Positions 47,610 through 64,000 of a DNA stretch of 64,000 bases are shown piece by piece; the first letter of the stretch is position 1; each line of letters opens with the position of its first letter. The stretch covers positions 1-64,000 of IMG/VR virus record IMGVR_UViG_3300010885_044304, one strand, 5' to 3'. The notes beneath the pieces were generated by a model. That model was not told the origin of the DNA. It searched no databases and worked only from the letters and a program-made list of their open reading frames with translations. Both the position numbers and the translations under genes were made by a program. The stretch comes from a virus.

Positions 47610-47762
47610 ATGAATGCACAATTAGAAAATTTGTCAAAAATGCAAACGCCCCTGACTCCCACGGTCAATAAGCCCACGGAATCTGGGTCATTTTCTGTGG
47701 AATCTCATGTGAAAATTTTTGATCCAAACACCAAACAAGTGTATGTGGAGAAGCGAGCATGA
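47610..47762 (+). CDS. 50-residue structural mini-protein, partial paralogue of the next gene
   Basis: ATG at 47610 opens a 50-codon frame ending at the TGA that overlaps the next start (ATGATG). Its last 17 residues, HVKIFDPNTKQVYVEKR, are clearly related to FLKIHDPNSKEVFVDKH at the start of the next protein. An AAGG-type site lies upstream. Its position between the giant wedge protein and fibre genes suggests a baseplate or fibre-attachment part, but its function is unknown. It might also be a decayed duplicate of its neighbour. Confidence 0.65.
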   Translation: MNAQLENLSKMQTPLTPTVNKPTESGSFSVESHVKIFDPNTKQVYVEKRA

Positions 47763-48384: not shown

Positions 48385-48392
48385 CATAAATA
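48385..48392 (+). promoter_or_regulatory. Late promoter octamer for the tail-fibre gene
   Basis: CATAAATA lies 19 bases before the ATG at 48412, the same spacing as before gp6. A GGACGGAG ribosome site lies between them. Confidence 0.6.
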
Positions 48393-48411: not shown

Positions 48412-49770
48412 ATGGCGTACACAATAAATTTAACAGATGGCAGCATATTTGCTACTGTATCAGACGGAACTATCAACACTAGTTCAAGCATGATCTTGGT
48501 TGGTAAAAACTATGCTGGATATGGTGAATTTCTTGATGAAAACTTCATCCACTTGCTGGAAAACGGTAGCAATACCAGTGCACCAGGTGCACCACTGACA
48601 GGACAGTTATGGTGGGATTCTGCTAATGACTTGATGAAAGTTTATACAGGCACAGCCTTTAAAACTATTAGTGCTGCCACTGCCAGTGCTACAGCTCCTA
48701 CTGGCAACGTCACTGGCGATATCTGGTTTGACACCACCAACCAACAGCTGAAAGTGTGGAATGGCTCTGCGTTTATTTTGGTAGGACCTGCTAGTTCTTC
48801 TGGTCAAGGCACAAGCGGTGCCATCGTTAATACCATTGAAGATAACGTTGGCAATGATCATGTTGTAATTCAGATGTTTGTGGCCAATACCATTGTCAGC
48901 ATGGTGTCTAAGGATTCCTCATTTACACCTGCAGTTGGCATTGCTGGATTTGCCACAATTGATCCAGGTATACAGATGAGCACTGCAGTGACCAACGCTC
49001 AGTTCGTGGGCACAGCTGCCAATGCTTCTTTGTTGGATGGACTGGACAGCACTTCATTCTTGCGTAGTGATGCTAGCGACACTACCTCGGGTACCCTGGG
49101 CATTATCAACGATTCCGGACTCACAGTTGGACTGGATCAAGATGCAAAAATCAGTGTTACTCTGGCCACATCAGCTGTGAATATTCAAAACCAAACACAG
49201 GATGCCAACATCAATATTCAGGTCAACGACGGCGGCGTAACAACAACAGCCTTGTTTGTTGACGGCTCAACAGCATTGGTTGGCGTCAAAGGCATTACAA
49301 ATCTTGGCTCCAATGGTGCCGGCAACATTGGCAGTTCTGCTACATTTTTTAATACAATATTTGCCACAGCCACCACAGCCTTGTATGCAGACGTTGCAGA
49401 ACGTTTTGCAGCAGATGTAGAAATGTTACCAGGCACAGTGGTCGAACTGGGTGGCACAGCTGAAATTACCAAAAGTGTTGATGAACTAAGTGAAAATGTT
49501 TTTGGAGTCATAAGTACCAGAGCTGCTTATCTGATGAACGCTGGTGCAGGAACAGATTCAACCCATCCTCCTATCGCAATGACAGGTCGTGTGCCAGTTA
49601 GAGTAACAGGTTCAATCTGCAAAGGTGATCGATTGGTTGCAGCAGGCGACGGCCTGGCTCGCGCAGCTCGCCCAGGCGAAGCCACAGCATTCAACACAAT
49701 AGGTCGTTCATTGGAAGCCAAAGAATCAGAAACAGTTGGCATTATTGAAGCAATTGTGACCATCAATTAA
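48412..49770 (+). CDS. Tail fibre protein
   Basis: This 452-residue protein has two N-terminal fibre units (GQLWWDSANDLMKVYTGTAF near 64 and GDIWFDTTNQQLKVWNGSAF near 100). The middle region contains ASLLDGLDSTSFLRSDASD, a segment frequent in phage fibres. The C-terminal domain from about 325 opens YADVAERFAADVEMLPGTVVELGG and continues with FGVISTRAAYLM and MTGRVPVRVTG. This type of C-terminal domain is common at fibre tips and may act as a folding or self-cleaving module, as in peptidase-G2-type domains. It is likely trimeric. It probably contributes to host recognition. Confidence 0.8.
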   Translation: MAYTINLTDGSIFATVSDGTINTSSSMILVGKNYAGYGEFLDENFIHLLENGSNTSAPGAPLTGQLWWDSANDLMKVYTGTAFKTISAATASATAPTGNVTGDIWFDTTNQQLKVWNGSAFILVGPASSSGQGTSGAIVNTIEDNVGNDHVVIQMFVANTIVSMVSKDSSFTPAVGIAGFATIDPGIQMSTAVTNAQFVGTAANASLLDGLDSTSFLRSDASDTTSGTLGIINDSGLTVGLDQDAKISVTLATSAVNIQNQTQDANINIQVNDGGVTTTALFVDGSTALVGVKGITNLGSNGAGNIGSSATFFNTIFATATTALYADVAERFAADVEMLPGTVVELGGTAEITKSVDELSENVFGVISTRAAYLMNAGAGTDSTHPPIAMTGRVPVRVTGSICKGDRLVAAGDGLARAARPGEATAFNTIGRSLEAKESETVGIIEAIVTIN

Positions 49771-49783
49771 TTGGAATAGCGAC

Positions 49784-50743
49784 ATGACTTATACAGCAGG
49801 CGGATTGATACAGGCCATAGACTACAATACATTTGCACAGGGCGGAGCTGCTCCTGACGATAACGTTGCCAACATCAACACTGTTTGGGGTACAGGTACT
49901 TTGGATAAAGGATGGGGCCAGTCTACTACACTGTCGACTGTGGCAGCAGCAGGTACTGTGACAGCAACACAATTTTCCAACTTGTTTACCCGGTTTACTA
50001 GTATTGCAAATCAGACTAATACCACGGTCACAGCTGTGACCAACCCCACTGTGGGTCAAACCATTGATGCCAAAGCCAACTTTTCTGCCAACTTGTCCTC
50101 ATGTTTTACCAATCGCAACAACGCAGCAGGCGTAGGATCTACCATTACCCTTAACGGTGTGGCCACTCGTTTAACAGCGTGGCTGACAGCATGTACAGCA
50201 ACACATACCATCACCTTTGCTGACGCCAACTCTGCACGGTATTTCTTTAATGCCGGCGGTCGTATTACCATAGCCGGTGCCAGATCTGGTGGCACTGTCA
50301 ATTCTAAAAACACATCCTGGACTGATTTGCTTACAGCATGTGGCACCATAAACATAACCACAGGCACCAGTACACAAGTCATTGCAGCTGCTAATTTTAC
50401 CGGAACTACAAAAACAGGTGGATCTGGCACACCAACAACCTTGTTGACAACAACTGGATTTTACGACCTTACCACAAGTAACCAAGAAGTTTTTAAACAA
50501 TTTGGCTCCACATATTTGTACACCACAAACTTTGTCAGCATCAATATCTTGGCCAACGCAGCAGCAGGATCAGCAACCACAATTACCATAACAGTGCGGT
50601 TTGATGATTCTCATGTGCTGAGCACAGACGAAAATGTCGACGGCACACTGACCAGCACTGTAACACTGGTGCAACCATCAACTACCTATTTGACCAACAC
50701 TTGGGGAACACCCACAATTTCAAGCAGCATAACTGGCAGTTAA
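49784..50743 (+). CDS. Tail fibre or baseplate-associated structural protein, Thr/Asn-rich
   Basis: This 319-residue protein starts YTAGGLIQAIDYNTFAQG, then GTGTLDKGWGQST and VTATQFSNLFTRF, a recurring start of phage virion proteins that I have seen in marine T4-like genomes. The rest is strand-rich, dominated by Thr, Ala, Gly and Ser. Its place after the fibre gene and before a strong hairpin suggests the last structural gene of the late operon. Confidence 0.65.
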   Translation: MTYTAGGLIQAIDYNTFAQGGAAPDDNVANINTVWGTGTLDKGWGQSTTLSTVAAAGTVTATQFSNLFTRFTSIANQTNTTVTAVTNPTVGQTIDAKANFSANLSSCFTNRNNAAGVGSTITLNGVATRLTAWLTACTATHTITFADANSARYFFNAGGRITIAGARSGGTVNSKNTSWTDLLTACGTINITTGTSTQVIAAANFTGTTKTGGSGTPTTLLTTTGFYDLTTSNQEVFKQFGSTYLYTTNFVSINILANAAAGSATTITITVRFDDSHVLSTDENVDGTLTSTVTLVQPSTTYLTNTWGTPTISSSITGS

Positions 50744-50751
50744 AAATCTAC

Positions 50752-50777
50752 ATTCTGGCAAGTGATCTTGCCAGAAT
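50752..50777 (+). terminator. Strong hairpin ending the structural operon
   Basis: A perfect 11-base stem (ATTCTGGCAAG / CTTGCCAGAAT) with a TGAT loop begins eight bases after the stop at 50743. It is followed by CGTTTACTAATTT. The stem is strong and the T tract is imperfect. Confidence 0.65.
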
Positions 50778-50815
50778 CGTTTACTAATTTCAAAAAAATC
50801 ATTACAATAGTTACT

Positions 50816-51115
50816 ATGTCAGATATAGTCACACGAATCCGCACACGGTTTGATCACGCCGCTGCAAAGAAAACTTTGCAAGAAAAATATGAATCCAAGA
50901 TGCTGTTTGCACATGCAGGCGGCATGTTTCGATCCACTCCAGATACAATAACTTTTCTAAGTCTGTATGATGACAAAGATATTGTTCTCCTTGACGTTTA
51001 TCATACTCCTGTCAAGGTAAATGCTGCCGACCTCAAACATGAAATGCAACAAAGATGGCAGGAGCAAATGAACGACTGGCTGGTAGAATGGTCACAAATG
51101 CAACAACAACGATGA
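50816..51115 (+). CDS. Conserved small phage protein, function unknown
   Basis: This 99-residue protein (ATG at 50816, after the hairpin) has the pattern FDHAAAKKTLQEKYESKMLFAHAGGMF, then DIVLLDVYHTPVKVNAADL and a C-terminal RWQEQMNDWLVEW. I recall similar proteins in marine T4-like phages, but no function is known. It opens the accessory operon and its stop overlaps the next start as ATGA. Confidence 0.7.
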   Translation: MSDIVTRIRTRFDHAAAKKTLQEKYESKMLFAHAGGMFRSTPDTITFLSLYDDKDIVLLDVYHTPVKVNAADLKHEMQQRWQEQMNDWLVEWSQMQQQR

Positions 51116-51927
51116 CAAAAGGTATCATAATTTATGCTTTTAACAACGAAAGCATAGATTACTTTGGCCAAGCAGTATGGTGTGCAGATCGTGTGAATCG
51201 TTATTTGGATTTACCAGTCACCATAGTGACTGATTTAGGCAGCATCAGAGACAGAAAAACCACACACTCGGTTGTGTTCTCTATAGCAGAATCTGGTGGC
51301 TATAGAGTTTTCAATCCAAGTGTGACCAATCAAGCAGACACATGGTACAACGGTAATAGATTTCAAAGTTTTGAACTTTCGCCCTACGACCAAACAATAG
51401 TGCTTGATAGCGACTATGTGGTATGCAGCAATCAGCTACAGACCCTATTTGATTTGAATCTTCGGGTCACTGCCATGAAGCATGTGTATGACATCACTGG
51501 CCGCGATGGATTTAGACCCTATCAAAGTATATCAAATGCCACAGGACTACATCACTACTGGGCAACTGTGTTGTATTTTGATAGAAGCCAGACAGCCAAA
51601 GATTTCTTTGTGCTAATGGACATGATTAAAAAAAATTACACACACTATTCAAATATATACAAATTTAGAACATCACCCTTTCGCAATGATTTTGCTGTAA
51701 GTATTGCTTTGAATACAATATACGGACACATACCCAACGCTGTACCGGTTATACCCTGGAAAATGGCCAATGTTTTCAATGACGTTGGAATTCGGACTCA
51801 TGATCAAGAAACATTTGAACTTGCATACCAAGTAGGACCAGAAAAAACTTGGCGTAAAATTACTGTCAAAGATCAAGATTTTCATTTTATGAATAAATTT
51901 GATTTGGCCAAGATATATGAAAATTGA
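51112..51927 (+). CDS. GT-A-type glycosyltransferase-like protein
   Basis: This protein of about 271 residues begins MTKGIIIYAFNNESIDYFG, a first strand of a nucleotide-sugar fold, followed by LPVTIVTDLGS. QTIVLDSDYVV carries a DxD motif (D99, D101) of the sort that binds metal and sugar nucleotide in GT-A enzymes. Later segments (TGLHHYWATVLYFDRS, FRNDFAVSIAL) resemble family 8-like transferases. The start overlaps the preceding stop. It has no membrane segment. Donor and acceptor are unknown. Confidence 0.65.
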   Translation: MTKGIIIYAFNNESIDYFGQAVWCADRVNRYLDLPVTIVTDLGSIRDRKTTHSVVFSIAESGGYRVFNPSVTNQADTWYNGNRFQSFELSPYDQTIVLDSDYVVCSNQLQTLFDLNLRVTAMKHVYDITGRDGFRPYQSISNATGLHHYWATVLYFDRSQTAKDFFVLMDMIKKNYTHYSNIYKFRTSPFRNDFAVSIALNTIYGHIPNAVPVIPWKMANVFNDVGIRTHDQETFELAYQVGPEKTWRKITVKDQDFHFMNKFDLAKIYEN

Positions 51928-52723
51928 AGATGAACGTGGCTATCTTGTGGTAGCGCAAAATAACAATGACACTGATTATATTGTCTGCGCCGAAACTTTG
52001 GCAAAAAGTATTAAATTGGTTGAGCCTGACGCAAAAATTTGTCTACTCACAGATGTTTTGATCGATAACAAAGTTTTTGACTATGTAAAAACTTTTCCGT
52101 TTGGTGATCAGGCCAAGGACACAACTTGGAAATTGCACAATGATTGGCAATGTTTTTATGCCAGCCCCTTCAGAGAAACAATTAAGTTAGAAGCTGACAT
52201 GATTATCCCGCACAGTATTAAACATTGGTTTGATATTTGTAGCGCCAAAGATCTTGTGTGCACAATTGGTGCCAGGAATTTTCATAATCGTCGGTCCAGT
52301 TCCAGAACATATAGAAAGATTTTTGATGAAAACAATTTGCCTGATGTATATAATGCAATAACTTATTGGAAACTGAGTGCCAATGCCAAGAATTTTTTTG
52401 ACACAGTGCGCGATATATTTACAAACTGGGAAGTTGCAATGTCTGCATTAAAATTTGGAGCAGGACAGACATTAAATACTGATCTTGCTTATGCTATTGC
52501 TTTAGATTTATTGGGTAAAGACCAATTTACACTGCCAGGATCAGTGCCTGGTCTGATACACATGAAGTCTTCTATCAATGGTAATGAATCAGAAGATTGG
52601 ACCAAAGAATTGATATGGGAATTAAATCGTGGATCGTTGCGCATCAACACAGTTGAACAATTGTGGCCATTTCATTATCATATAAAATCATTTGCAAAGA
52701 CTTTACAAGAACACTATGGATGA
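51917..52723 (+). CDS. GT-A-type glycosyltransferase-like protein, paralogue of its neighbour
   Basis: This protein of about 268 residues has the same layout as the preceding gene: YLVVAQNNNDTDYIVCAETL, then AKICLLTDV, and FRETIKLEADMII in place of the DxD strand (E92-A-D94). LNTDLAYAIALDLLG matches the FRNDFAVSIAL segment. The E-x-D variant may alter metal binding. Start (ATG 51917) overlaps the previous stop. Tandem duplication of an ancestral transferase is likely. Confidence 0.62.
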   Translation: MKIEDERGYLVVAQNNNDTDYIVCAETLAKSIKLVEPDAKICLLTDVLIDNKVFDYVKTFPFGDQAKDTTWKLHNDWQCFYASPFRETIKLEADMIIPHSIKHWFDICSAKDLVCTIGARNFHNRRSSSRTYRKIFDENNLPDVYNAITYWKLSANAKNFFDTVRDIFTNWEVAMSALKFGAGQTLNTDLAYAIALDLLGKDQFTLPGSVPGLIHMKSSINGNESEDWTKELIWELNRGSLRINTVEQLWPFHYHIKSFAKTLQEHYG

Positions 52724-53045
52724 ATTTCTCAAAGCGTGGAACCAAATAAATTGGTCACGTCCTGTGATTGAATACAAGATATACTATGATACTGAATCAG
52801 GTAATATACTTGATTATACCACAGACAATTTACCAGGCACATATATAGTGATTGATAAACACACATTTTATTGCCATAGATTTGACATAAGAATTCGAGA
52901 CGGAAAAATGATAGAAATTCGAAACAAAGTTGGAAAATTACGTCCAGATGTCAACGGAACTCCGTGTCATCCCAGTGACATTACTATTATTACAGATAAA
53001 ACACCAGCGGTATTTTGGAAGACTCACACATATGACAACATTTGA
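52716..53045 (+). CDS. Small conserved protein of unknown function
   Basis: This 109-residue protein (ATG 52716, overlapping the preceding stop) contains PVIEYKIYYDTESGNIL, PGTYIVIDKHTF and RFDIRIRDGKMI, an all-beta layout. I recall relatives in marine phage gene clusters beside the protein encoded next, but no function is known. Overlap with both neighbours suggests obligate co-expression. Confidence 0.65.
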   Translation: MDEFLKAWNQINWSRPVIEYKIYYDTESGNILDYTTDNLPGTYIVIDKHTFYCHRFDIRIRDGKMIEIRNKVGKLRPDVNGTPCHPSDITIITDKTPAVFWKTHTYDNI

Positions 53046-53955
53046 TATAGCAGATTTAGATACAATTTATTTGAGTTATGATGAATCACAAAAAGAAGAA
53101 TTCTGGGTCAAGATCAAAAACATGGTGCCCTGGGCCAAGCGGGTGGACAGCGTCAAAGGCTCGGATGCAGCGCACAAAGCAGCAGCAGCGGCCAGCAATA
53201 CCGAAAGATTTATTCTTATCGATGGTGATAATCTTCCTGATCCTGGTTTCTTTAATCTCCAGCTCACCCTGGATGATGGGAATAGGGATTGTGTTTTTCG
53301 CTGGCGTGCTCGCAACCATGTTAACGGACTAATGTACGGCAATGGTGGTATGAGTTGTTGGACCCGAGACTTTGCCAACAACATGCGTACACACGAAAAC
53401 ACAGACGGCAGAGATGAAACTAATGTAGAGTTTTGTTTTGATCCCAAGTATATTGCCATGCACGATTGCTATAGCACAACATACCCTAACGGATCCCCTT
53501 TTCAAGCCTGGCGAGCAGGCTTTAGAGAAGGCGTTAAGATGTGTTTGAATCAAGGACGCCGGCCCAGTGTAAGCGAGTTTAAAGAACTTGTACATCGCCG
53601 CAACTTGGATCACTTGACTATATGGCACAATGTAGGCGCAGATGTAGAGAATGGCATGTGGGCGGTATTTGGTTCTAGACTAGGAACATACAAGACCATG
53701 CTAACAGATTGGGATTACACAGAAGTACAGGACTTTGATAAGTTAGCAGAACTCTGGGAAGAACATGGTGATACAGGTCCTACATGGCGAGCAGAAGAAC
53801 TTGAAAAATCATTGCGAATACAACTTGACTTGCCTATGAATCTTTTTACACAAGAACAAAGTCGTTTCTTCAAGCACCACTATCGTAGCAATTGGCACAA
53901 TCGTGGTATTATGACAACAGAGATGGCAGTGATACGTGGCCAAGAAGGCTGGTGA
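53032..53955 (+). CDS. Glycosyltransferase-like protein (GT-A fold, DGD motif)
   Basis: This 307-residue protein begins MTTFDIADLDTIYLSYDE and has ERFILIDGDNLPDP with D64-x-D66 in the GT-A metal-binding position. VFRWRARNHVNGLMYGNGG and SCWTRDFANNM follow, and a second half with QAWRAGFREGVKM. I know closely similar proteins from marine T4-like phages, annotated as glycosyltransferases or unknown. The later part (PTWRAEELEKSLR) may be a separate helical domain. No acceptor can be named. Confidence 0.68.
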   Translation: MTTFDIADLDTIYLSYDESQKEEFWVKIKNMVPWAKRVDSVKGSDAAHKAAAAASNTERFILIDGDNLPDPGFFNLQLTLDDGNRDCVFRWRARNHVNGLMYGNGGMSCWTRDFANNMRTHENTDGRDETNVEFCFDPKYIAMHDCYSTTYPNGSPFQAWRAGFREGVKMCLNQGRRPSVSEFKELVHRRNLDHLTIWHNVGADVENGMWAVFGSRLGTYKTMLTDWDYTEVQDFDKLAELWEEHGDTGPTWRAEELEKSLRIQLDLPMNLFTQEQSRFFKHHYRSNWHNRGIMTTEMAVIRGQEGW

Positions 53956-53956
53956 C

Positions 53957-54601
53957 ATGATTGATTATAATAGGCCCTGGCATGTATTAGATATTGATAT
54001 TTCTAATGCTGTTCGTACTGATTTAGATTTTGATCAATTGCTTGAGAAATCAGGAGCTGTTGATAAATCAATATTTTTGTGGAATTTCACCGACGAGTCG
54101 TTGACTGAACTTTTTGATCCGCAATGGCTGGTATATATTAAGTCATTGGGATTTGAAATTCGCAACACATTATTATTTTATCGAGCACCTGACTATATTC
54201 ATCCATTGGCGCATATTGATTATGTAGGAACTGCAAACCCGGTACCTGCTGTCTATGCATTAAATTTTGTAATTGACACAGAAGACGATAGTAGCATGGT
54301 CTGGTTCCGTCATAATAAGAAATCTGGGATGATGAAAACAGATGCTGACTTTAGCAATCCACAGAACCATTATGAATTTTGGCCAATGGATCAATTAGTT
54401 GGATGTGAAATTGATCGTAGGTGTATCGGCCAACAATTAACTCTAATTAGCACTGGTACTGCACACAATATTATCATGGGTAAAAAACCTCGCTGGGCCG
54501 TAAGTATCCGATTGGTACGTAATAACCAGATAAACAACTGGGCAGATGCAGTAAATTGTTTCTCTCCTTGGATTAAACAAAAAGGAAAAATTGATGATTG
54601 A
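53957..54601 (+). CDS. 2OG-Fe(II) oxygenase-like protein, first of a tandem pair
   Basis: This 214-residue protein (ATG 53957) has a candidate iron triad in the right order: H86-x-D88 (HID) and H170 (TAHN), with R185 (PRWAVSIR) placed to bind 2-oxoglutarate. The strands around them (VYALNFVIDT, SMVWFRHN) fit a double-stranded beta-helix. It begins MIDYNRPWHVLDI, nearly identical to the start of the next protein. The substrate is unknown. Context suggests hydroxylation of a sugar, lipid or protein linked to the surface-modification genes. Identity comes from motif reading only. Confidence 0.65.
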   Translation: MIDYNRPWHVLDIDISNAVRTDLDFDQLLEKSGAVDKSIFLWNFTDESLTELFDPQWLVYIKSLGFEIRNTLLFYRAPDYIHPLAHIDYVGTANPVPAVYALNFVIDTEDDSSMVWFRHNKKSGMMKTDADFSNPQNHYEFWPMDQLVGCEIDRRCIGQQLTLISTGTAHNIIMGKKPRWAVSIRLVRNNQINNWADAVNCFSPWIKQKGKIDD

Positions 54602-55220
54602 TTATAATAAGCCGTGGCATACTTTAAATATCAGTATGGATAATGCACTGAATCCTAATTTTGATGCTGAAAAATTTAGAGCACAAACTGATCAAGCTGG
54701 TAAACCGCTTGGCATATGGTCTTTCCGTGACACGGAAATGCTACAAATTCTCAACAAAGAGTGGCTTGACTATTTGGCTAATGAAGGAATCGAAGTAAAT
54801 TCTTTTATGATATTTTATAGAGATGCTCATTTAGTATATCCAGAAGCACATGTAGATATTTTATGGCACAGCGACCTTCCGAATATTTTTGGAATCAATT
54901 GGGTATTTTCCCCAAACGACGATAGTTATATGACCTGGTATGATGTGCCATACGAATCTGGGACGTCAGAATTAACTCCTGTTAATACCAAATATGTATA
55001 CTGGAAGCTTGAAGATGTCAAAGATAAAGAATTGGCAAGACATACCATTGGCAACAAATTGACCATGGTCAGAACTGGTATAGCACACAATGTCATTGTC
55101 AATACACAACCACGGTGGGTCATCAGTCTTAGATCCAAAGTTGTCGGCAACCCAAATTATACTGACTGGAATAGTGCAGTTGATTATTATGCGAAAACTC
55201 TCAATCTAATTGAATCATGA
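54594..55220 (+). CDS. 2OG-Fe(II) oxygenase-like protein, second of a tandem pair
   Basis: This 208-residue paralogue keeps the same candidate ligands at matching positions: H86-x-D88 (HVD), H165 (IAHN) and R180 (PRWVISLR). It starts MIDYNKPWHTLNI and overlaps its sister's stop, with AAAAAGGA upstream. Overall sequence has diverged well beyond the shared ends, so the duplication is not recent. Both keeping the triad suggests both are active, perhaps on different sites. Confidence 0.65.
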   Translation: MIDYNKPWHTLNISMDNALNPNFDAEKFRAQTDQAGKPLGIWSFRDTEMLQILNKEWLDYLANEGIEVNSFMIFYRDAHLVYPEAHVDILWHSDLPNIFGINWVFSPNDDSYMTWYDVPYESGTSELTPVNTKYVYWKLEDVKDKELARHTIGNKLTMVRTGIAHNVIVNTQPRWVISLRSKVVGNPNYTDWNSAVDYYAKTLNLIES

Positions 55221-55864
55221 TACTGGCCAATAGGGATACAATCAGACTTATCGGTTTCTTAGAGTCAACTATAACACAAGAAGCTAAATTTTTTATATCT
55301 GCTGAGTTTACTGGTAAGATTGAAATTATATCTCCTCAAGACTTTATAAAGTCAGATCATAAAGATGAGTATTCTTATCTTATAGCATTTACTTTAGACG
55401 AAACATTGCGTCGTCAAATTATCAACATCATTGATAAAGAAAATTTGGATTGCATCATTTATATTCACCCTAGTGTAGTTCGATATTATAATGATGCGTC
55501 TGTAAGAGAACATGTAGGAATTGGAAGTTTTATATTAGCGTTTTCATCAATGCTAATAGGTTCAAAACTTGGTAAACATTGTATCGTTGAAACATATTGT
55601 CTGATATCACATTATGTTAATATAGATGATAATGTACAGTTACACAGTGGAGTTATGATCGCCGGAAGGACTAATATAGGAAAAAATTGTATGTTTAATT
55701 TTAAAGCATCTGTTCTTAATTCCTTAAATATTGGCAGCGATGTTGAATTAGGCGCAGCAAGTTGTATTACAAAAGACACACTAATGCCAGGAAAATACGT
55801 TGGATCTCCCGCCAGGCGAATTGGTGACCGAACAAAATTTATTGAGACATTGAAACATGCATAA
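55217..55864 (+). CDS. NeuD/PglD-like sugar O- or N-acyltransferase
   Basis: This 215-residue protein has an N-terminal Rossmann-like part (1-90), then left-handed beta-helix hexapeptides: IGSFILAF, IGSKLGKHCIVE, IDDNVQLHSG, IGKNCMFNF and IGSDVELGAASCITKD. It ends YVGSPARRIG, the standard end of this family. H115-like residues in the SHYVNIDDNVQLHSG region would be catalytic in NeuD/PglD enzymes. Such enzymes acetylate sialic acid or amino-sugar intermediates with acetyl-CoA. It sits directly before an aminotransferase, the usual pairing in amino-sugar pathways. ATGA overlap upstream. Confidence 0.8.
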   Translation: MILANRDTIRLIGFLESTITQEAKFFISAEFTGKIEIISPQDFIKSDHKDEYSYLIAFTLDETLRRQIINIIDKENLDCIIYIHPSVVRYYNDASVREHVGIGSFILAFSSMLIGSKLGKHCIVETYCLISHYVNIDDNVQLHSGVMIAGRTNIGKNCMFNFKASVLNSLNIGSDVELGAASCITKDTLMPGKYVGSPARRIGDRTKFIETLKHA

Positions 55865-56543
55865 AATTTGGCCATTGGGACAAGTCCTAGGAGATTTACA
55901 ACGTCCAGAACTGTCGCTATTAAAAAAATCCGGATATTCCTGGAAGGATCCTTACGACATAGTAGATATGTTCGAAGAAAAAGTTGCTAAATTTGCTGGC
56001 GCAAAATTTGGAATCGCAATTGATTGCTGTAGCCATGGACTGTTTCTTTGTTTAAAATATTTCAATGCCACAGGGTCTATCACCATTCCCAGTCGCACTT
56101 ATGTTTCTGTCCCTATGCAGATACAGCATGCCGGATGCGTACCAAAATTAGTAGATATGAAATGGACTGGACGTTATCGTTTGGATCCATATCCAATATG
56201 GGACGGTGCAGTACGCTGGCAAGAAAATATGTATACTGATGGATTACATGTAGTATCTTTTCAAATTAAAAAACGTATTCCTATTGGTCGCGGAGGAATG
56301 ATTTTGACTAACGACGAGGATGCAGCTAAATGGCTACGCAAGGCAAGACATGACGGTAGAGATCTAAAAATCTCCTATGCTGCTGATGATTTTGCATTCT
56401 CCGGTTGGCACTATTACATGACTCCAGAGGATGCCGCTCGAGGAATATTGTTAATGGATGCCATTCCGGGCAGCTATCCGGATTCCGGCAATCACCAAAC
56501 ATATATAGATTTGTCAGCAAAACGTATATTAAATGATAATTGA
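55857..56543 (+). CDS. DegT/DnrJ/EryC1-type sugar aminotransferase, short form
   Basis: This 228-residue protein has the PLP-fold signature: FGIAIDCCSHGLFLCLKYF (cofactor phosphate region), IPSRTYVSVPMQIQHAGC, WDGAVRW with D116 for the pyridine nitrogen, and SFQIKKRIPIGRGGMILTND with the Schiff-base Lys at 138 or 139. Typical enzymes have about 370 residues. Here the C-terminal small domain is largely missing. I think this is a natural short form, because the next gene starts in frame spacing with normal overlap. It would aminate a keto-sugar made elsewhere. Confidence 0.75.
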   Translation: MHKIWPLGQVLGDLQRPELSLLKKSGYSWKDPYDIVDMFEEKVAKFAGAKFGIAIDCCSHGLFLCLKYFNATGSITIPSRTYVSVPMQIQHAGCVPKLVDMKWTGRYRLDPYPIWDGAVRWQENMYTDGLHVVSFQIKKRIPIGRGGMILTNDEDAAKWLRKARHDGRDLKISYAADDFAFSGWHYYMTPEDAARGILLMDAIPGSYPDSGNHQTYIDLSAKRILNDN

Positions 56544-57588
56544 TATTCAACGTTATTGGGGCGAGAGGGAAATTTACTACCCGGGAGAGCTAAGTTCTAA
56601 AATTATACACAGTATGCAAACGGACGGTTGGGTAGTATTACGATCTAAAGAAATACGCGGCGCCGAACTTAGTGGGCTTTACTCTTTTCTGGACCAGTTG
56701 CGAAGTTACTGGAAATGGGATATTAACAATATTACCTTAGAAACTGGCAATTTGTACGATGTATTTTTAAATCAATCACGTTATCCTGTTAGGTTATCTC
56801 TATTGTCAGAACCTCTGATTAATACCTGTACTGACATAATCGAACATCGTCCGTGGAATAAAGAAAAAACTTACGGTATGTTTATCGGCCGGGCTAATGT
56901 AACACGTATTCGTGCTGCACATAGGCATAAGAATTTTGAGTTTCGCGAGCAAGGGTTAACTAGTTTTAACCACGATATGGATTATTATACTGATCCATAT
57001 TATTTGTTAGAATATTTGCAGCAGACTAATCAACCAATCTCGGAAATTAATGATATCAGACCTTACAGCGACATTGGTCCAGTGCAAACACCTCCCATCA
57101 CTCATCAATTTTCGGGCAAGGAGTGGAATAAAGTTTATGAAAAAATTGCTATAGAAATAGTATTAGAAACAGCCGAAGACGAGGGAGTATTTTCTATGAC
57201 AGAAAAAATTCTAAGACCAATACTTTATAAAAGGCCATTTTTGTTAATTGCAGGCCGCGGAGTTATTAATGATATCTGGAAAAAATTTGATAGTTTTTCT
57301 AAAGAAACAAAATTTGCTCCGCCTGGCACTTTAAAATTTTTCGAAAATGTAATTCCGATTGAATACGATTCTGATGGCGGAATACACAGAGTTGATTATG
57401 CATTTGATATATTACACATGCTAATTAGAACTAAAAAAATCAATACTATATTAGAAGACTGTCATGCCGATATCGAACACAATTATCAATATATGATGCA
57501 GTACATTCAAAATATCAAAGAATATAAAACACAATATAAACAAATGCTCGATCTTCCCAGTTGGAGAAAACCACAATTCGATGAATAA
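56533..57588 (+). CDS. Putative glycosyltransferase with 'TEK' donor-site motif
   Basis: This 351-residue protein carries VFSMTEKILRPILYKRPFLLIAGRG in its second half, matching the TEKIxKPLxxxxPF signature of fucosyltransferase/exostosin-like GT-B enzymes. A Tyr/Glu-rich run, AIEIVLETAEDEG, precedes it. The first half (WVVLRSKEIRGAEL) is not recognised. A related motif occurs in the gene at 59906. The ATG overlaps the aminotransferase stop. The substrate is unknown. Confidence 0.62.
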   Translation: MIIDIQRYWGEREIYYPGELSSKIIHSMQTDGWVVLRSKEIRGAELSGLYSFLDQLRSYWKWDINNITLETGNLYDVFLNQSRYPVRLSLLSEPLINTCTDIIEHRPWNKEKTYGMFIGRANVTRIRAAHRHKNFEFREQGLTSFNHDMDYYTDPYYLLEYLQQTNQPISEINDIRPYSDIGPVQTPPITHQFSGKEWNKVYEKIAIEIVLETAEDEGVFSMTEKILRPILYKRPFLLIAGRGVINDIWKKFDSFSKETKFAPPGTLKFFENVIPIEYDSDGGIHRVDYAFDILHMLIRTKKINTILEDCHADIEHNYQYMMQYIQNIKEYKTQYKQMLDLPSWRKPQFDE

Positions 57589-58972
57589 CAATAACTCAGA
57601 TAATAAAAGCAATTTTATGAGTGCAGCAGAAGACATGAAGGACAAGTTAGGTCCTGCACTGTGCTTGGCTAAATGGCAACAAGTAAGTTTACACTTGCCA
57701 ACTGGTCTTAACAACAGTTGCTATCATCCGCCTTTGCATGCTATAGATGCTACTGTGTTAAAAGATAATCCAGGCGCATTGCATAACACAGCACACAAGA
57801 AGCAACAGCGTGTTATGATGTTAAAAAATGAAAAACCATCTGAATGTAGCTACTGTTGGAATATTGAAAAACACGGCGAACTGAGCGATAGACATTACAG
57901 ATCAGGTGAGCCTTGGGCAGCAGAATTATACGACTTGATTAAAAACAGTACCGGAGATGAAGACGTTGTACCTAGTTATGTTGAAGTTAATTTTAATCAC
58001 GCTTGTAATCTTAAATGTAGTTATTGTAGTCCACAATTCAGCAGCTCGTGGCAACAAGAAGTTGACCGCTGGGGTGGTTATCCTACTAGCACTACTCACA
58101 ATGATCCTGGCCACTTTACTGGCCGTAATAGACCAATTCCTGCTAGAGATGATAATCCATACGTTGACGCCTTCTGGGCCTGGTGGCCCACGCTTTATCC
58201 CCGCTTAAAACATTTTCGTATGACCGGCGGCGAGCCATTGATGGACAAGAACACATACAAGGTATTTGACTATGTGCTAGCATTACCTAAACCCGATTTG
58301 CATTTGAATGTGACCAGTAACTTTAGTGTAGAGCCTGAGTTGTTTGAAAAGTACTTGGGTTATGTAAAACAGTTATGCAGCACCAATATCGAACACTTTA
58401 TGCAGTACGTTAGTCTGGATACCGGAAACACTTCACAGGCTGAATATATTCGATCTGGCCTCTGTGGAACACGGTTACAAAACTATGTATACCGTTACTT
58501 GGAAGAAGTACCATATCGCAACAGCCTAACGTTTATTATTACAATGAACAATTTAAGTGTAACAGGAATACAATCATTACTATCATACATTTTAAACCTA
58601 CGTGAGCATCATAGCTCGACATACCAGCGTGTTTGGTTTGACACTCCATTGCTGAGACAACCTGCTTGGCAAAGTCTGCAGATACTGCCACCTGCGTATG
58701 CAGACAAGCTAGAAGCAGTTGCAGACTGGATGGAACAGCATATGGAAACACCGGCGCGTCCCTTTAAGGGATTCAAAGACTACGAAGTACAGCGGATGCG
58801 ACGTGACATTGCATGGATGAGAGAAGGCACTGATAACTTAGAACAAAAGAAGGCAGACTTCTATCGTTTCTTTAGCGAGCATGATCGTCGCCGTGGAACA
58901 GACTTTTTAAAAACATTCCCAGAAATGAAAACATTTTGGCAGGAGTGCGAATATCATGCACATAATTCTTAA
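57581..58972 (+). CDS. Radical SAM protein of the phage 'twitch' type with N-terminal cysteines
   Basis: This 463-residue protein has C142-x3-C146-x2-C149 (CNLKCSYC), RMTGGEPLMD as the SAM-binding GGEP loop, and VTSNFS. Before the core lie C28, C47 and the pair C89/C92 (SECSYCW), plus NSCYHPPLH and ALHNTAHKK, all conserved in the paralogue at 62633. They are suited to holding an auxiliary iron-sulfur cluster, though unusually placed ahead of the barrel. The C-terminal about 150 residues are helical with EHDRRRGTDFLKTFPE. Such proteins occur in marine T4-like phages. Their reaction is unknown to me. Confidence 0.85.
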   Translation: MNNNNSDNKSNFMSAAEDMKDKLGPALCLAKWQQVSLHLPTGLNNSCYHPPLHAIDATVLKDNPGALHNTAHKKQQRVMMLKNEKPSECSYCWNIEKHGELSDRHYRSGEPWAAELYDLIKNSTGDEDVVPSYVEVNFNHACNLKCSYCSPQFSSSWQQEVDRWGGYPTSTTHNDPGHFTGRNRPIPARDDNPYVDAFWAWWPTLYPRLKHFRMTGGEPLMDKNTYKVFDYVLALPKPDLHLNVTSNFSVEPELFEKYLGYVKQLCSTNIEHFMQYVSLDTGNTSQAEYIRSGLCGTRLQNYVYRYLEEVPYRNSLTFIITMNNLSVTGIQSLLSYILNLREHHSSTYQRVWFDTPLLRQPAWQSLQILPPAYADKLEAVADWMEQHMETPARPFKGFKDYEVQRMRRDIAWMREGTDNLEQKKADFYRFFSEHDRRRGTDFLKTFPEMKTFWQECEYHAHNS

Positions 58973-59912
58973 TAATGATTCATTATTAGATTATTTTCCA
59001 GGAGTAAAAAACAAAGATTTATTGTTGTTCCACCATAGTAGTGTACCTGGTAATTTTACTGTATTTGACCCTTATACATTTTTAAATCGTGATTCTGATA
59101 TGTTACTGGTAACTTCAGGAGACAGTTGGACCTGGGGTATGGATCTTGCAGGACATAGCGACCTTGATCAATTTGACGTTAACGATTGGGAAATAACCAA
59201 TGGAATTATTTCAAATATTAATAACGACAGATTAACAAAAGTATTTGGTAATCTAGTAAGCAAAACAATTAATAGTGACTGGTTAAATTTGTCAATACCT
59301 GGGCACGGTAATTTTCACATGGCTGAATTAATTAATCATCTAGCAAATTTAATTCCAAAATTGCACTACAAAAAGATTTATGTTGTTTGCACACTAACTG
59401 AAGTGGGACGTTGGTTTAATACCGAAGATGATTTATTTTTAGATCATAATAAACTAATGGATCTAGTAGAATCTACCGGTAATGTAAATGATTTACTGGC
59501 TGAGTTAAATCGATTAGCGTTGAATCAGATTATTAACAACGTTGGTAAGTTTGATCATGTTACATTGCTAGTAGGCACTAATTTTGTCGATCCTGTGGGA
59601 TTTGAAAATTTAAAACCAGTTCAAATTTTAAAAACTCCTTGGTATCAATTATTAGACATTTCTTATGACCATCCATTTTACATGTCGTACGGTTTGGGAT
59701 TATCTAACTTTATAAGAGCTGTTGATGACGGTATGGTCCCAAAAAAATTACAATCTATCTTTAAAAAGTGGATAATGGATTCATTGCTGCAATGCGACCA
59801 GTTTGACAAACAGATCAGAGATTCAATATATTTTTCAAACAACAGTCATCATCCTATCGCAGCTGGACATACAATCTGGGCTGATTATGTTACTGGGCAT
59901 ATAATATGCTGA
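58956..59912 (+). CDS. SGNH/GDSL hydrolase-like protein
   Basis: This 318-residue protein has block I LVTSGDSWTWGMDL (Ser nucleophile), LSIPGHGNFHM (block II Gly/Asn), IYVVCTLTEVGRW (block III strand) and NNSHHPIAAGH near the C terminus with the catalytic His. No signal peptide is evident, so it probably acts in the cytoplasm or on the virion. It overlaps the radical SAM gene by 17 bases and the next transferase by seven. Confidence 0.8.
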   Translation: MHIILNNDSLLDYFPGVKNKDLLLFHHSSVPGNFTVFDPYTFLNRDSDMLLVTSGDSWTWGMDLAGHSDLDQFDVNDWEITNGIISNINNDRLTKVFGNLVSKTINSDWLNLSIPGHGNFHMAELINHLANLIPKLHYKKIYVVCTLTEVGRWFNTEDDLFLDHNKLMDLVESTGNVNDLLAELNRLALNQIINNVGKFDHVTLLVGTNFVDPVGFENLKPVQILKTPWYQLLDISYDHPFYMSYGLGLSNFIRAVDDGMVPKKLQSIFKKWIMDSLLQCDQFDKQIRDSIYFSNNSHHPIAAGHTIWADYVTGHIIC

Positions 59913-61027
59913 TTTATATTGACGAACGCTGCGAAGTTCATGATTTATTACTGCCAATTGCGTCTGGTGATTTTGTTGATTTTGAGTCTACAACAATTGT
60001 GCCCGGTGCTGTATATGTAATTGGGCGTGACACAATGGTGCGATCAAGTGTTAAAATACGCAACACAGTTGAAACAAACGTGGCACACATAGTATTTTCA
60101 AATCCAGCCGAAGGCGCCACTACTATGCTGGGGCAATTTGAAAGATTCCCTACAAGAGATTTAATAGAATCTGGAAAAATTTTAGTGTTAACTGGTGGTG
60201 ATCTTCCAGATAATTATCGTTATTTTCAGTTTGAAAATTTCTGTCAACGCATGACAAATTTTGAAGAAAATATTTCATGCATGTCTCGCACTGATGAAAT
60301 ATACAACAAGATTCAAAAACCCTATACCTTTTTATTTTTAAATGGACGTATGCGACCGCATCGTAAATGGTTATTACTTAAACTAGCTGATTTAAATCTG
60401 TTGGATCGCAGTTTGTACACCAACTTAGATAACAAAAATGCCCCCAACAGAGAACTAACATACACAGTAGAAGGTCAGGATCTCATGGCACGGGCAGAAC
60501 CATTGCAATATTTGCCCAGCCATTACGAAGTAGATCTTTACAAGGATTATATTGGTAAACACAGCAATGAAACCAATGTTAAAATGACTCTGTTTAACAA
60601 CGAGTGGGGCGAAGCATACATCAAACCTGATCCTTACATTGACACTTATTTTAGTTTAGTAACCGAAACTGTATTTTCTGGTACAAATAGTTTCAGGACA
60701 GAAAAGATTTGGAAACCCATTATGATGGGCCATCCGTGGGTAGCAGTTGCTAATAAAGGTTTTTATCAAGACTTACACAACATGGGCTTTCGGACTTTTG
60801 GCAATATAATAGACGAAAGTTTTGATCAAATTGATAATCCGCAAGATCGAATTGAACGTATTAGTCAAGTGGTAAAGAACCTATGTACTAGCAATTTAAT
60901 ACAATTTATGTTACAATGTAAAGATACCTGTAAATATAACCAGCAGGTAATGCTTGATTATCAAGAACGTCTGGTATCAAAATTCCCTCAGCAGTTTGTT
61001 GACTTTTTAAGAGAACAAACCCAATGA
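59906..61027 (+). CDS. Putative fucosyltransferase/exostosin-like glycosyltransferase
   Basis: This 373-residue protein has TFLFLNGRMRPHRKWLL near residue 141, frequent in phage and bacterial glycosyltransferases of this group. NSFRTEKIWKPIMMGHPWVAV follows near 261, with the TEK at 265-267 and GFRTFGNIIDESFD after it. These match the GT-B C-terminal donor site of the fucosyltransferase/exostosin-like group. The first about 130 residues are not recognised. It lies between an SGNH and a radical SAM gene. The ATG overlaps the previous stop. Confidence 0.72.
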   Translation: MLIYIDERCEVHDLLLPIASGDFVDFESTTIVPGAVYVIGRDTMVRSSVKIRNTVETNVAHIVFSNPAEGATTMLGQFERFPTRDLIESGKILVLTGGDLPDNYRYFQFENFCQRMTNFEENISCMSRTDEIYNKIQKPYTFLFLNGRMRPHRKWLLLKLADLNLLDRSLYTNLDNKNAPNRELTYTVEGQDLMARAEPLQYLPSHYEVDLYKDYIGKHSNETNVKMTLFNNEWGEAYIKPDPYIDTYFSLVTETVFSGTNSFRTEKIWKPIMMGHPWVAVANKGFYQDLHNMGFRTFGNIIDESFDQIDNPQDRIERISQVVKNLCTSNLIQFMLQCKDTCKYNQQVMLDYQERLVSKFPQQFVDFLREQTQ

Positions 61028-61054
61028 AGCATTTAAAACTTCTGGATACATAAT

Positions 61055-61948
61055 ATGAACAAAGATTTTATACACATGGGGGTAGTTGAATTTTACATTA
61101 CAAATGTGTGTAATCTCACGTGCCAGGGTTGTAATAGATTTAACAATTATAAATTTAGCGGATTTCAAAAGTGGACAGATCTCGAATCTGTTTATACCAA
61201 ATGGGCAGAACAGCTAAGACTTACAGGTATTGGAATATTAGGTGGCGAACCTTTATTGAATCCTGAGTATATGCTTTGGTTGCAGGGCCTGCGTAATCTT
61301 TGGCCTAATTCCACTATTACAACCACTACCAATGGATATCGTCTTAATCAGGTTAAAGGTTTATATGATTATATGCTGGCCCATAAAACAAATACATTTT
61401 TATCTGTGGGTATACATAACAAAAAAAGCAAATCTTTAATAATGGATAATATTGAAAAGTTTTTAACAGGACCCATCCACTATGAATTTGATTCTAAAAA
61501 CCAGTATCGTGTGCATATGATATTAACAGACGCTAACGGTGTCCAACTCAAAGTTGAGCATAATTGGTGGTTCCATCAAGGTGCATTAGTTAAAGATTCT
61601 GAAACAGGAAAGTTTAGTCTACATCAAAGCGATCCTGCTAAAGCACACGATATTTGTCATAGTAAATATTGCCACCATTTTATGGACGGAAAATTATACA
61701 AGTGCGGAGCAGTTGCGTTATTTCCAGAATTTGATACACAACATAATCTGCAATTGACTGCCGAGGATCGCGAATTAATGAATTCCTACAGTCCATTGAC
61801 CGCTGCGGATAGCATTGAAACAAAACGAGAATTTATAAAAAATCTTCCTAATAGTATACCGCAATGTAAATTTTGTCCGGAACAGTATCATGGAGATCAA
61901 ATTTTTGCAGAAGAAAAACGAGTAGTCTTTAAAAGAAACATTCAATGA
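61055..61948 (+). CDS. Radical SAM protein with C-terminal cysteine cluster
   Basis: This 297-residue protein has C19-x3-C23-x2-C26 (CNLTCQGC), GILGGEPLLNP and TTTTNGY, a full radical SAM core start. The C-terminal part has ICHSKYCHHF, YKCGAV and PQCKFCPEQ, a SPASM-like arrangement for auxiliary clusters. It is not closely like the twitch-type proteins on either side. A 27-base gap precedes it, the only real gap in this part of the operon, with no clear ribosome site. The substrate is unknown. Confidence 0.84.
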   Translation: MNKDFIHMGVVEFYITNVCNLTCQGCNRFNNYKFSGFQKWTDLESVYTKWAEQLRLTGIGILGGEPLLNPEYMLWLQGLRNLWPNSTITTTTNGYRLNQVKGLYDYMLAHKTNTFLSVGIHNKKSKSLIMDNIEKFLTGPIHYEFDSKNQYRVHMILTDANGVQLKVEHNWWFHQGALVKDSETGKFSLHQSDPAKAHDICHSKYCHHFMDGKLYKCGAVALFPEFDTQHNLQLTAEDRELMNSYSPLTAADSIETKREFIKNLPNSIPQCKFCPEQYHGDQIFAEEKRVVFKRNIQ

Positions 61949-62640
61949 AATACATATTTGCCGGAGACAGCTGGGCCACAAAGGCTTATACTCCAGAAAA
62001 CAAAAATATCAATCAGTTGCTGCCAAATGATGTGAGGCTGGCCGATTTTTGGGGTCTACCATATTCTCATCAGTTTTCATTGGGATTAAGTAATTTAGAA
62101 GTTATGGATAAAATAGCCCGGCACCATAACAACAATTTACCTATTGTTTGGATCTACACTGAACCTTGTAGGGACTATAACAGAATCACCGGGCGAGATG
62201 AATTTGAATGGCTAACTAGCGAAAAAACTTTTGAAATACGGAAAGATATTGATTGCATAGTATTAGAAACTATTAAAAAAACAATTAAAAATCCAATTGC
62301 ACTAATTGGAGGGCTATCTGACATTAATACAGAATATGCATTAAGCCTGGGATATGAAGTTTTGCATCCGAGCTGGCAAAGTTGGATAGCAAAAAAACTA
62401 AATTCAAAATGGTTTCAATTTGGTTGGGGAGCCAGTGACGTGGGTTGGAGAATGGATTATCATAATGTTAAACCAAGCCGTGAAGCTATATTTGCCTGGG
62501 ATGATCAAATTAAAGAATGGTGCTGGTGGGAAGAACAGGGATATTTTTGTCGAGAACATCCTAGTATGCGGGCACATGAAGAATTTGCTGAATTTATGAA
62601 ATTAAATGTGTTACAGTGGATAAATTGCTATTATGAATGA
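61945..62640 (+). CDS. SGNH-hydrolase-like protein
   Basis: This 231-residue protein opens KYIFAGDSWATKAY (block I GDSW). It has SLGLSNLEVMDKI in place of block II, LPIVWIYTEPCRD as the block III strand, and EHPSMRAHEEFAEF at the C terminus supplying the His. A run of Trp residues (EWCWWEEQGYF) is notable. Start overlaps the radical SAM stop (ATGA) and its stop overlaps the next radical SAM start. Confidence 0.75.
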   Translation: MKYIFAGDSWATKAYTPENKNINQLLPNDVRLADFWGLPYSHQFSLGLSNLEVMDKIARHHNNNLPIVWIYTEPCRDYNRITGRDEFEWLTSEKTFEIRKDIDCIVLETIKKTIKNPIALIGGLSDINTEYALSLGYEVLHPSWQSWIAKKLNSKWFQFGWGASDVGWRMDYHNVKPSREAIFAWDDQIKEWCWWEEQGYFCREHPSMRAHEEFAEFMKLNVLQWINCYYE

Positions 62641-63970
62641 TTTAGAATTTAAACAAACAGTGCTTGACACTATTAGTCCCAGCTTCTGCGCGGCCAAATG
62701 GTACAACGCTACTATCTGGCTAGGCTCCGGTATGACCACTAGCTGTCATCACCCGCCTGCACACAAAGTTGAAGTAGTTGATCTTATGACCAATCCTAAA
62801 GCACTGCATAACACAGCACAGAAGAAACAAGATCGTGCAGATATGCAAGCAGGAAATCGTCCTAAGGGGTGCGAATACTGTTGGAAGATTGAAGACATGG
62901 GGCGTGATGCTATTAGTGACCGTGTATATAAAAGTAAAATTTATCCTATAGAGGCCTTGCATAAAGCTGCCAACACTCCTGCAACTAATGACGTTGATCT
63001 CAAAACCCTTGAGATATCTTTTGATCGCACCTGCAATTTTGCTTGTAGTTATTGCAACCCTGCTTTTAGTAGCACTTGGGTCAATGATATCAAGCGCAAT
63101 GGGCCCTACATCGGCCTTAGATCCGATGGCAGGAATCATTTTACTCACACTCACGATAGCAGTCAACTTTATAGCTTTGGGGAACGCAATCCTTATGTGG
63201 ATGCATTTTTTGCCTGGTGGGAATCTGACCTCCATAGAACACTTCAGGAACTTAGAATAACAGGCGGCGAACCCTTGATGTCCGGCTATACATGGAAACT
63301 AATTGATTGGTTTAAAACCAATCAAGGCCGCAGTCAGACTAAGTTAGCAATAAACAGCAACTTGGGTATGACACGAGAAAAACTATCAGACTTTGTTGAG
63401 CGTGTAAAAGACATTCCACATTTAGAAATTTATACCAGCAACGAAGCAGTAAATGGTGCCGCTGCATACATTCGAGACGGATTAGACTACAACTTATGGA
63501 TGCACAATGTACAAGAATTACTTGAGCAGGATAGTATTAAAGCCATGCATTTTATGTGTACCATCAATGCCCTGTGCCTAACTACATTACCTAATTTCTT
63601 ATCGCAATTAATGGACCTAAAACAAACATATGGTCGAGAGCGTGTCAGCTTTACACTTAACATCCTACGTTTTCCTAGTTTCCAGAGCCCGTTAATTTTT
63701 CCAAATGACTTGCGTACACAATTTAAGAACAATTTACAGGACTGGCTTGATACACATCGGGTTCATCCGTTAATGCACGAGCACGAAATTAATCACCTGC
63801 AGAGACTAATTGATTATTTAGATGTAGTTAAAACTCCTCATAGCGAAACATTTGATATGCCCAGTTTATTAAATGACTTTAAGAAATTCTATACACAGTA
63901 CGACCAACGCCGTGATAAGAACTTTACACAGGCATTTCCTATATTAGAAGAATGGTACAATGGCCTATAA
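62633..63970 (+). CDS. Radical SAM protein of the phage 'twitch' type, paralogue of the one at 57581
   Basis: This 445-residue protein has C134-x3-C138-x2-C141 (CNFACSYC), RITGGEPLMS and AINSNLG. N-terminal cysteines C19, C38, C80 and C83 align with those of the paralogue (SFCAAKW / ALCLAKW; TSCHHPP / NSCYHPP; GCEYCW / ECSYCW), as does ALHNTAQKKQ. The C terminus, QYDQRRDKNFTQAFPILEEW, also matches. The pair probably performs related chemistry on different substrates. Confidence 0.85.
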   Translation: MNDLEFKQTVLDTISPSFCAAKWYNATIWLGSGMTTSCHHPPAHKVEVVDLMTNPKALHNTAQKKQDRADMQAGNRPKGCEYCWKIEDMGRDAISDRVYKSKIYPIEALHKAANTPATNDVDLKTLEISFDRTCNFACSYCNPAFSSTWVNDIKRNGPYIGLRSDGRNHFTHTHDSSQLYSFGERNPYVDAFFAWWESDLHRTLQELRITGGEPLMSGYTWKLIDWFKTNQGRSQTKLAINSNLGMTREKLSDFVERVKDIPHLEIYTSNEAVNGAAAYIRDGLDYNLWMHNVQELLEQDSIKAMHFMCTINALCLTTLPNFLSQLMDLKQTYGRERVSFTLNILRFPSFQSPLIFPNDLRTQFKNNLQDWLDTHRVHPLMHEHEINHLQRLIDYLDVVKTPHSETFDMPSLLNDFKKFYTQYDQRRDKNFTQAFPILEEWYNGL

Positions 63971-64000
63971 TTATAACAGCACTGATCCAATAAAGATTCG
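63960..64000 (+). CDS. Start of a further gene running off the window
   Basis: An ATG at 63960 overlaps the preceding stop by 11 bases, the habit of this operon, and stays open for 13 codons (MAYNYNSTDPIKI) to the window end. It is too short to identify. Confidence 0.4.
   Translation, partial: MAYNYNSTDPIKI

Follow-up and report, generated by a model that had tools for sequence, protein, structure and literature searches.

What does a phage do with a long, tightly packed run of radical S-adenosylmethionine (SAM) enzymes and glycosyltransferases beside its tail fibre gene? The question is raised by the window analysed here, bases 1–64,000 of the 66,160-base viral record IMGVR_UViG_3300010885_044304, where 16 complete open reading frames (ORFs), all on the + strand, span 50816–63970 (Table 1). 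They overlap at 13 of 15 junctions, the only two gaps in the run lying at 53955/53957 and 61027/61055. An earlier reading of the sequence (hereafter the original prediction) had described such a same-strand, overlapping run, with three radical SAM proteins, as a phage-encoded pathway for a glycan or other modification; all three proteins are present, and two further radical SAM genes of the same operon follow before the record ends. The reading favored here, at a probability of roughly 0.5, is that of a cytoplasmic operon whose enzymes put together a glycan tailored by radical chemistry, with the Ser/Thr-rich tail protein STR4 as its likeliest acceptor.

Conserved Core and Exchangeable Cargo

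Relatives were collected in two scans of viral stretches, one with rSAM1 (80 of 128 kept) and one with a GTc query from a distant relative (80 of 104 kept). The scan set that includes the window (L003–L082) is termed clade A and the set L094–L173 clade B, neither being a formal clade; many loci come from related lineages, and a number of contigs nearly duplicate one another. About 150 viral contigs share one core order: a small protein, GTa, GTb, a second small protein, GTc and then tandem twitch radical SAM enzymes. GTa, GTb and GTc are colinear in 73 of 77 loci in one scan and 77 of 80 in the other, and the fibre and STR4 genes lie directly upstream of the core in 73 of 77 and 79 of 80. Among the loci selected through GTc, where radical SAM genes played no part in the selection, all 72 with sufficient flank have at least one such gene downstream. 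Some jumbo-phage contigs hold a second cassette of GTc and radical SAM genes lacking the fibre, which indicates that these genes travel together apart from it.

The original prediction had named scattered genes as the outcome that would speak against it; the neighborhood proved to be conserved, in support of a phage-encoded pathway for a glycan or modification. Its defining set has to be redrawn, however. NeuD, DegT and 2-oxoglutarate (2OG) oxygenase genes occur in only 2, 4 and 2 of 80 relatives (2–8 of 80 when g10, g14 and g15 are included), and SGNH types vary. All four of these gene types are interchangeable cargo, and the core is defined by GTa-GTb-GTc plus the twitch radical SAM enzymes. 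Such sporadic cargo, together with the known existence of hypervariable host-recognition regions (PMC7029224), would suit a loose pile-up of accessory genes without joint function, but this is far-fetched given the core order of some 150 loci, the overlapping genes and the single start with its lineage-specific promoter; for the core, a random accessory collection is rejected by synteny.

The source phage is assigned to the T4 superfamily because the record encodes portal, head protease, baseplate wedge and hub, late sigma factor and SbcC/SbcD families; its nearest portals are those of the jumbo phages PA5oct, Atu_ph07 and Phosso (48–56% identity). The cassette is widespread and conserved in large uncultured aquatic phages, but almost no cultured phage carries it. 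When GTb, GTc, g13 and rSAM1 were each searched against cultured phages, none gave a match, and rSAM4 matched only Vibrio phages K566/K567 (22%), which have radical SAM genes without recognizable core genes alongside. Bacterial homologues of GTc were found on only three contigs of metagenome-assembled genomes (MAGs); phage tail genes are present on L084 and L086.

Glycosyltransferases

GTc shows 71% mean column identity over 46 sequences and an invariant D66-G67-D68, a DxD-type metal site. Its AlphaFold2 (AF2) model (predicted local distance difference test, pLDDT, 90) is best matched in Foldseek by the peptide S-glycosyltransferases SunS/ThuS (E = 5.5e-4), and its viral matches include the glycosyltransferase of mycobacteriophage Che8. 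Its best matches are GT-A enzymes, and GTc is assigned as a GT-A glycosyltransferase at the level of fold (TM about 0.3). For g13 (AF2 pLDDT 95), matches to an α1,3-fucosyltransferase of family GT10 (E = 4.4e-4) and to POGLUT1 (E = 3e-3), and to other GT-B enzymes, indicate a GT-B fold glycosyltransferase nearest to the fucosyltransferase. Structure prediction and comparison, proposed as a check, gave a glycosyltransferase fold class for both GTc and g13; PDB profile searches with these two yielded nothing usable. Four or five transferase-like proteins had been noted. Beyond these two, GTa keeps the conserved Asp of DxD, and GTa and GTb may be GT8-like on weak evidence (Glyco_transf_8 at E = 0.01 in 1 of 42 members; glycogenin-2 at E = 0.93). 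The protein g10 is placed as glycosyltransferase-like through its best-matching relatives, which group with g13-like proteins.

Radical SAM Enzymes and Their Cellular Relatives

All five radical SAM proteins of the operon carry CxxxCxxC and GGEP, the former conserved among relatives of rSAM1 (172/172), rSAM3 (91/91) and rSAM4 (204/205). Four of the five belong to N_Twi_rSAM (NCBIfam NF033640, curated cut-off 170 bits, whole-protein score); the fifth, rSAM2, scores 22 bits and is a different kind of radical SAM protein. Cassettes of relatives encode up to eight radical SAM enzymes. As a separate observation, one viral record of 346,856 bases (L060/G004) holds 21 N_Twi_rSAM matches, 16 of them over the family cut-off.

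Over that cut-off, the family is rare in proteobacterial genome samples (3/399, 2/385 and 2/369). In one genome (G090; contig C19, L183) four N_Twi_rSAM domains lie in an ABC-exported O-antigen-type locus, where the ATPase of a Wzt O-antigen exporter is fused in frame to a SPASM/radical SAM domain (L183:8579–11143) and followed by three N_Twi_rSAM genes. Cellular neighbors include Wzm, Wzt_C fused to radical SAM, RmlC, RmlD, TylF and WbsX, and, in G125 and G758 (the latter by reading of the sequence), glycosyltransferase and epimerase genes. The remaining matches in these samples are phage-like contigs in MAGs.

Twitch/SPASM-type radical SAM proteins commonly act on peptides. The radical SAM enzymes and GTc might therefore modify a polypeptide directly, yielding a crosslinked or glycosylated tail protein or a peptide like the ribosomally synthesized and post-translationally modified ones, rather than a glycan; the SunS/ThuS matches of GTc and the small conserved proteins g01 and g04, as possible substrates, agree with this. 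However, g01 and g04 resemble ordinary conserved phage proteins and are low in Cys (0.5% and 1.7%), most of the cellular N_Twi_rSAM genes found adjoin sugar genes, and the cargo is of sugar type, which makes direct peptide modification improbable.

Regulation at the Start of the Cassette

Promoter-like signals were found only before the first gene and none at the internal cassette junctions tested, so that the operon has one start, with a promoter that depends on the lineage. In clade A the junction between STR4 and the cassette carries a sigma70-type promoter scoring at least 10/12 in 34 of 62 distinct relatives (1.1 in shuffles, which here and below kept base composition only) and a terminator-like hairpin in 36 of 62 (0.5 in shuffles), with late motifs in 2. 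In clade B, NTAAATA stands there in 58 of 60 (4.2 expected), with one sigma70-type promoter and no terminator-like hairpin among 59. Freshwater relatives make up the set with terminator and sigma70-type promoter; the other set uses the T4-type late promoter. Before the fibre gene, NTAAATA recurs in both clades (34 of 46 and 51 of 57 distinct relatives versus 5.1 and 8.2 in shuffles). The exact T4 late motif TATAAATA is absent from the window, this lineage using NTAAATA before the fibre gene.

With its sigma70-type promoter and terminator, the cassette of clade A, including the window, may be transcribed early. Early expression would suit enzymes that alter host surface glycans during infection, such as precursors of lipopolysaccharide or O-antigen, and so block superinfection or change phage release. 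The cellular N_Twi_rSAM genes inside an ABC-export O-antigen locus are in keeping with such a role, which is also preferred by the authors of the pelagimyophage study for their GT8 enzymes (PMC7029224). Against it, none of 1739 cassette ORFs has three or more predicted membrane spans, and no integral-membrane flippase, polymerase or exporter is encoded; moreover, the T4-type late promoter of the other set would act late for exclusion, and fibre genes adjoin the cassette near-constantly. Host-surface modification is therefore possible but rather unlikely.

The Candidate Acceptor and the Proposed Pathway

STR4 averages 28.7% Ser+Thr across its family, compared with 10–22% in the other genes compared, and almost every locus has its gene next to both fibre gene and cassette. 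In clade B, the STR4-GTa pair gives the strongest partial distance correlation with other genes controlled (0.53; subsamples 0.44–0.68). Tail-protein glycosylation is favored because of this correlation, the Ser/Thr content and the lack of multi-pass membrane proteins, which also suggests that the product is made and used in the cytoplasm. The glycan-assembly reading draws further on the conserved order, the fold class of GTc and g13, the radical SAM family with its mostly polysaccharide-linked cellular members, the sugar-type cargo and the single start, and the late-type promoter of clade B would coincide with the phase of virion building. A separate hint of a link between sm04 and STR4 comes from four loci (L144–L146 and L168), in which the sm04 gene lies between two STR4 copies and not before GTc.

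In the proposed pathway, GTa, GTb, GTc and g13 would assemble a short glycan, drawing on the nucleotide sugars of the host, and the tandem N-terminal-twitch radical SAM enzymes would act on its sugars, for example by epimerization, dehydration/deoxygenation or carbon-carbon bond formation. The decoration could then be varied by swappable cargo (acyltransferase, aminotransferase-like, oxygenase, SGNH, carbamoyltransferase, methyltransferase or epimerase). The likeliest acceptor would be STR4 or the fibre, both encoded just upstream, and receptor-facing parts of the virion would therefore carry a variable glycan. That the tandem radical SAM proteins are carbohydrate enzymes acting on a tail-protein glycan, with exchange of tailoring genes generating receptor-facing diversity, is offered as a tentative and somewhat doubtful extension.

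Several points weigh against glycan assembly on a tail protein. Shared ancestry within one phage lineage may account for part of the conservation of the core order, the TM-scores of the fold matches are low (0.3–0.4), and no characterized member of N_Twi_rSAM was found. The STR4-GTa correlation is absent from clade A (0.17), whose possibly early timing would fit host-surface or metabolite modification equally well. In one of the four cellular cases (G770), N_Twi_rSAM has a methyltransferase-like neighbor and no glycan genes next to it. What is modified, by which reactions and to what advantage for the phage are all inferred.

Phage glycosyltransferases are also able to hypermodify DNA, according to work cited in PMC12619734, and some cargo, such as the carbamoyltransferase, could act on modified bases. 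That the glycosyltransferases and tailoring enzymes decorate DNA is nevertheless very improbable: the cassette sits beside tail genes, its cellular neighbors are mostly polysaccharide genes, and no base-hydroxymethylating gene was noticed in the record, which is a fragment and was not searched systematically for one.

Relation to Known Systems

The original claim that no described system has this composition was too strong, since two forerunners exist, although neither works out the operon or its function. Pelagimyophages, which are T4-like, possess a host recognition cluster (HRC) with tail fibres, GT8-type glycosyltransferases and radical SAM cassettes (PMC7029224). That cluster is described as a nonsyntenic hypervariable island, with no fixed core operon and no analysis of promoters or folds, whereas the present loci keep one core order and the portal of this record is closest to jumbo-phage portals. 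The T4-like environmental genome TARA_ERS488813_N000010 likewise concentrates many radical SAM genes, 12 in all, in one phage; the source reads them as Fe-S metabolism and, in the section consulted, draws no link to glycosyltransferases or tail genes (PMC5332604). Glycans on virion proteins are documented for mycobacteriophages (Freeman et al., 2023, as cited in PMC12619734). The likeness lies in the Che8 glycosyltransferase as a structural match of GTc, but mycobacteriophages are a different phage class. To our knowledge, no radical SAM array accompanies mycobacteriophage glycosylation. The G090 locus shares tandem N_Twi_rSAM with glycan genes; in contrast to the phage cassettes, which have no exporter, it includes a Wzm/Wzt exporter and dTDP-rhamnose genes. 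The four NF033640 members of the present record are in tandem and paired with glycosyltransferases. A search of literature mostly excluding subscription journals and preprints turned up no paper describing this conserved operon, the regulation of its single start, the folds assigned here or the fusion with Wzt.

If correct, the favored reading would reveal a radical-chemistry route to virion sugars in widespread, largely uncultured aquatic phages and provide a first testable function, glycan tailoring, for the uncharacterized N_Twi_rSAM family, of which up to 16 members over the cut-off occur in one phage record. Two predictions also follow from it: that STR4 is the specific acceptor, and that regulation is switched between lineages.

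Cargo Enzymes and Neighboring Features

The predicted NeuD and DegT genes stand as relatives rather than family members. The g08 product matches TIGR03570 over nearly its full length at 111 bits, below the cut-off of 160.8, and is a NeuD/PglD relative. That of g09 (228 aa) matches the 360-position PF01041 profile in two short stretches and falls short of the full-length two-domain fold; it keeps the region of the pyridoxal phosphate (PLP) lysine, has a same-length relative in L079/L081 and is a compact DegT relative. The oxygenase and SGNH labels hold at the level of motifs. Both g06 and g07, as well as their relatives, have HxD...H...R (metal triad and 2OG-binding Arg), with no match to a curated model and nothing usable from PDB profile searches. 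GDSW is present in g12 and g15, the Asp of the last SGNH block (DxxH) is not evident, and curated-model searches returned no match. A Pfam tally of 115 representative cargo proteins is mostly of sugar type among the best 25 of 53 families, which include epimerases, GDSL lipases, methyltransferases, UDP-sugar dehydrogenase, carbamoyltransferase, aminotransferase and dTDP-sugar isomerase. Two families follow the radical SAM array in relatives, at positions past the end of this record: c361 (conserved, 361 aa; e.g., L038:19525–20610; 56 relatives) and CARB, a TobZ/NodU-type carbamoyltransferase (e.g., L056:18707–20188; 40 relatives).

Table 1. Genes and signals of the cassette and its upstream flank, in window coordinates unless stated.
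Feature	Position	Strand	Assignment	Support
STR9	47759..48364	+	conserved virion-region protein 5' of fibre gene	phrog_11259 E=1e-73; same place in most relatives
CATAAATA	48385..48392	+	late promoter-like motif, T4-type	before fibre gene
FIBER	48412..49770	+	tail fibre / virion structural protein	phrog_21412 (tail fiber), phrog_14394 (virion structural)
STR4	49784..50743	+	Ser/Thr-rich protein, candidate acceptor	
Terminator-like hairpin	50752..50777	+	between tail genes and cassette	
TTTACT-17-TACAAT	50780..50808	+	sigma70-type promoter just 5' of first gene	9/12
g01 (sm01)	50816..51115	+	small conserved protein, opens operon	76/80 relatives
g02 GTa	51112..51927	+	possible GT-A/GT8-like glycosyltransferase (weak evidence)	77/80 relatives
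g03 GTb	51917..52723	+	GTa paralogue, same cluster	77/80 relatives
g04 (sm04)	52713..53045	+	small conserved protein	family in 76 loci
g05 GTc	53026..53955	+	predicted GT-A fold; most conserved core enzyme	invariant DGDN
g06	53957..54601	+	putative 2OG-Fe(II) oxygenase, cargo	HxD...H...R motif
g07	54594..55220	+	g06 paralogue, cargo	32% identity; 2/80 relatives
g08	55217..55864	+	NeuD/PglD-like left-handed-beta-helix acyltransferase, cargo	TIGR03570 E=4e-32; 2/80
g09	55857..56543	+	compact DegT-like PLP protein, cargo	PF01041 E=6e-17
g10	56533..57588	+	glycosyltransferase-like protein, cargo	8/80 relatives
g11 rSAM1	57581..58972	+	N_Twi_rSAM radical SAM enzyme, core	NF033640 300 bits
g12	58956..59912	+	SGNH-like hydrolase/acyltransferase by motif, cargo	GDSW and HP motifs
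g13	59906..61027	+	predicted GT-B glycosyltransferase, GT10-like	58/80 relatives
g14 rSAM2	61055..61948	+	radical SAM without N-terminal twitch domain, cargo	PF04055 E=4e-8; 7/80
g15	61945..62640	+	SGNH-like by motif, cargo	GDSW; 4/80, 52–53% identical
g16 rSAM3	62633..63970	+	N_Twi_rSAM, core	NF033640 306 bits; 77/80
rSAM4	record 63960–65246 (window holds 63960..64000)	+	N_Twi_rSAM	NF033640 398 bits
rSAM5	record 65243 to end, outside window		N_Twi_rSAM, incomplete	NF033640 289 bits

The start of GTa at 51112 is preferred over 51055 because of its ATGA overlap with the g01 stop. Elsewhere in the window, a 4610-aa protein is encoded upstream of the tail fibre genes (33760–47592). Two more radical SAM-like genes (phrog_21308; 11418–13303, − strand) are distant from the cassette and adjoin the SbcC/SbcD genes, where SbcC (gp46-like; 13296–15774, − strand) is apparently broken into at least two ORFs, with a frameshift, an insertion or an assembly error as candidate causes.

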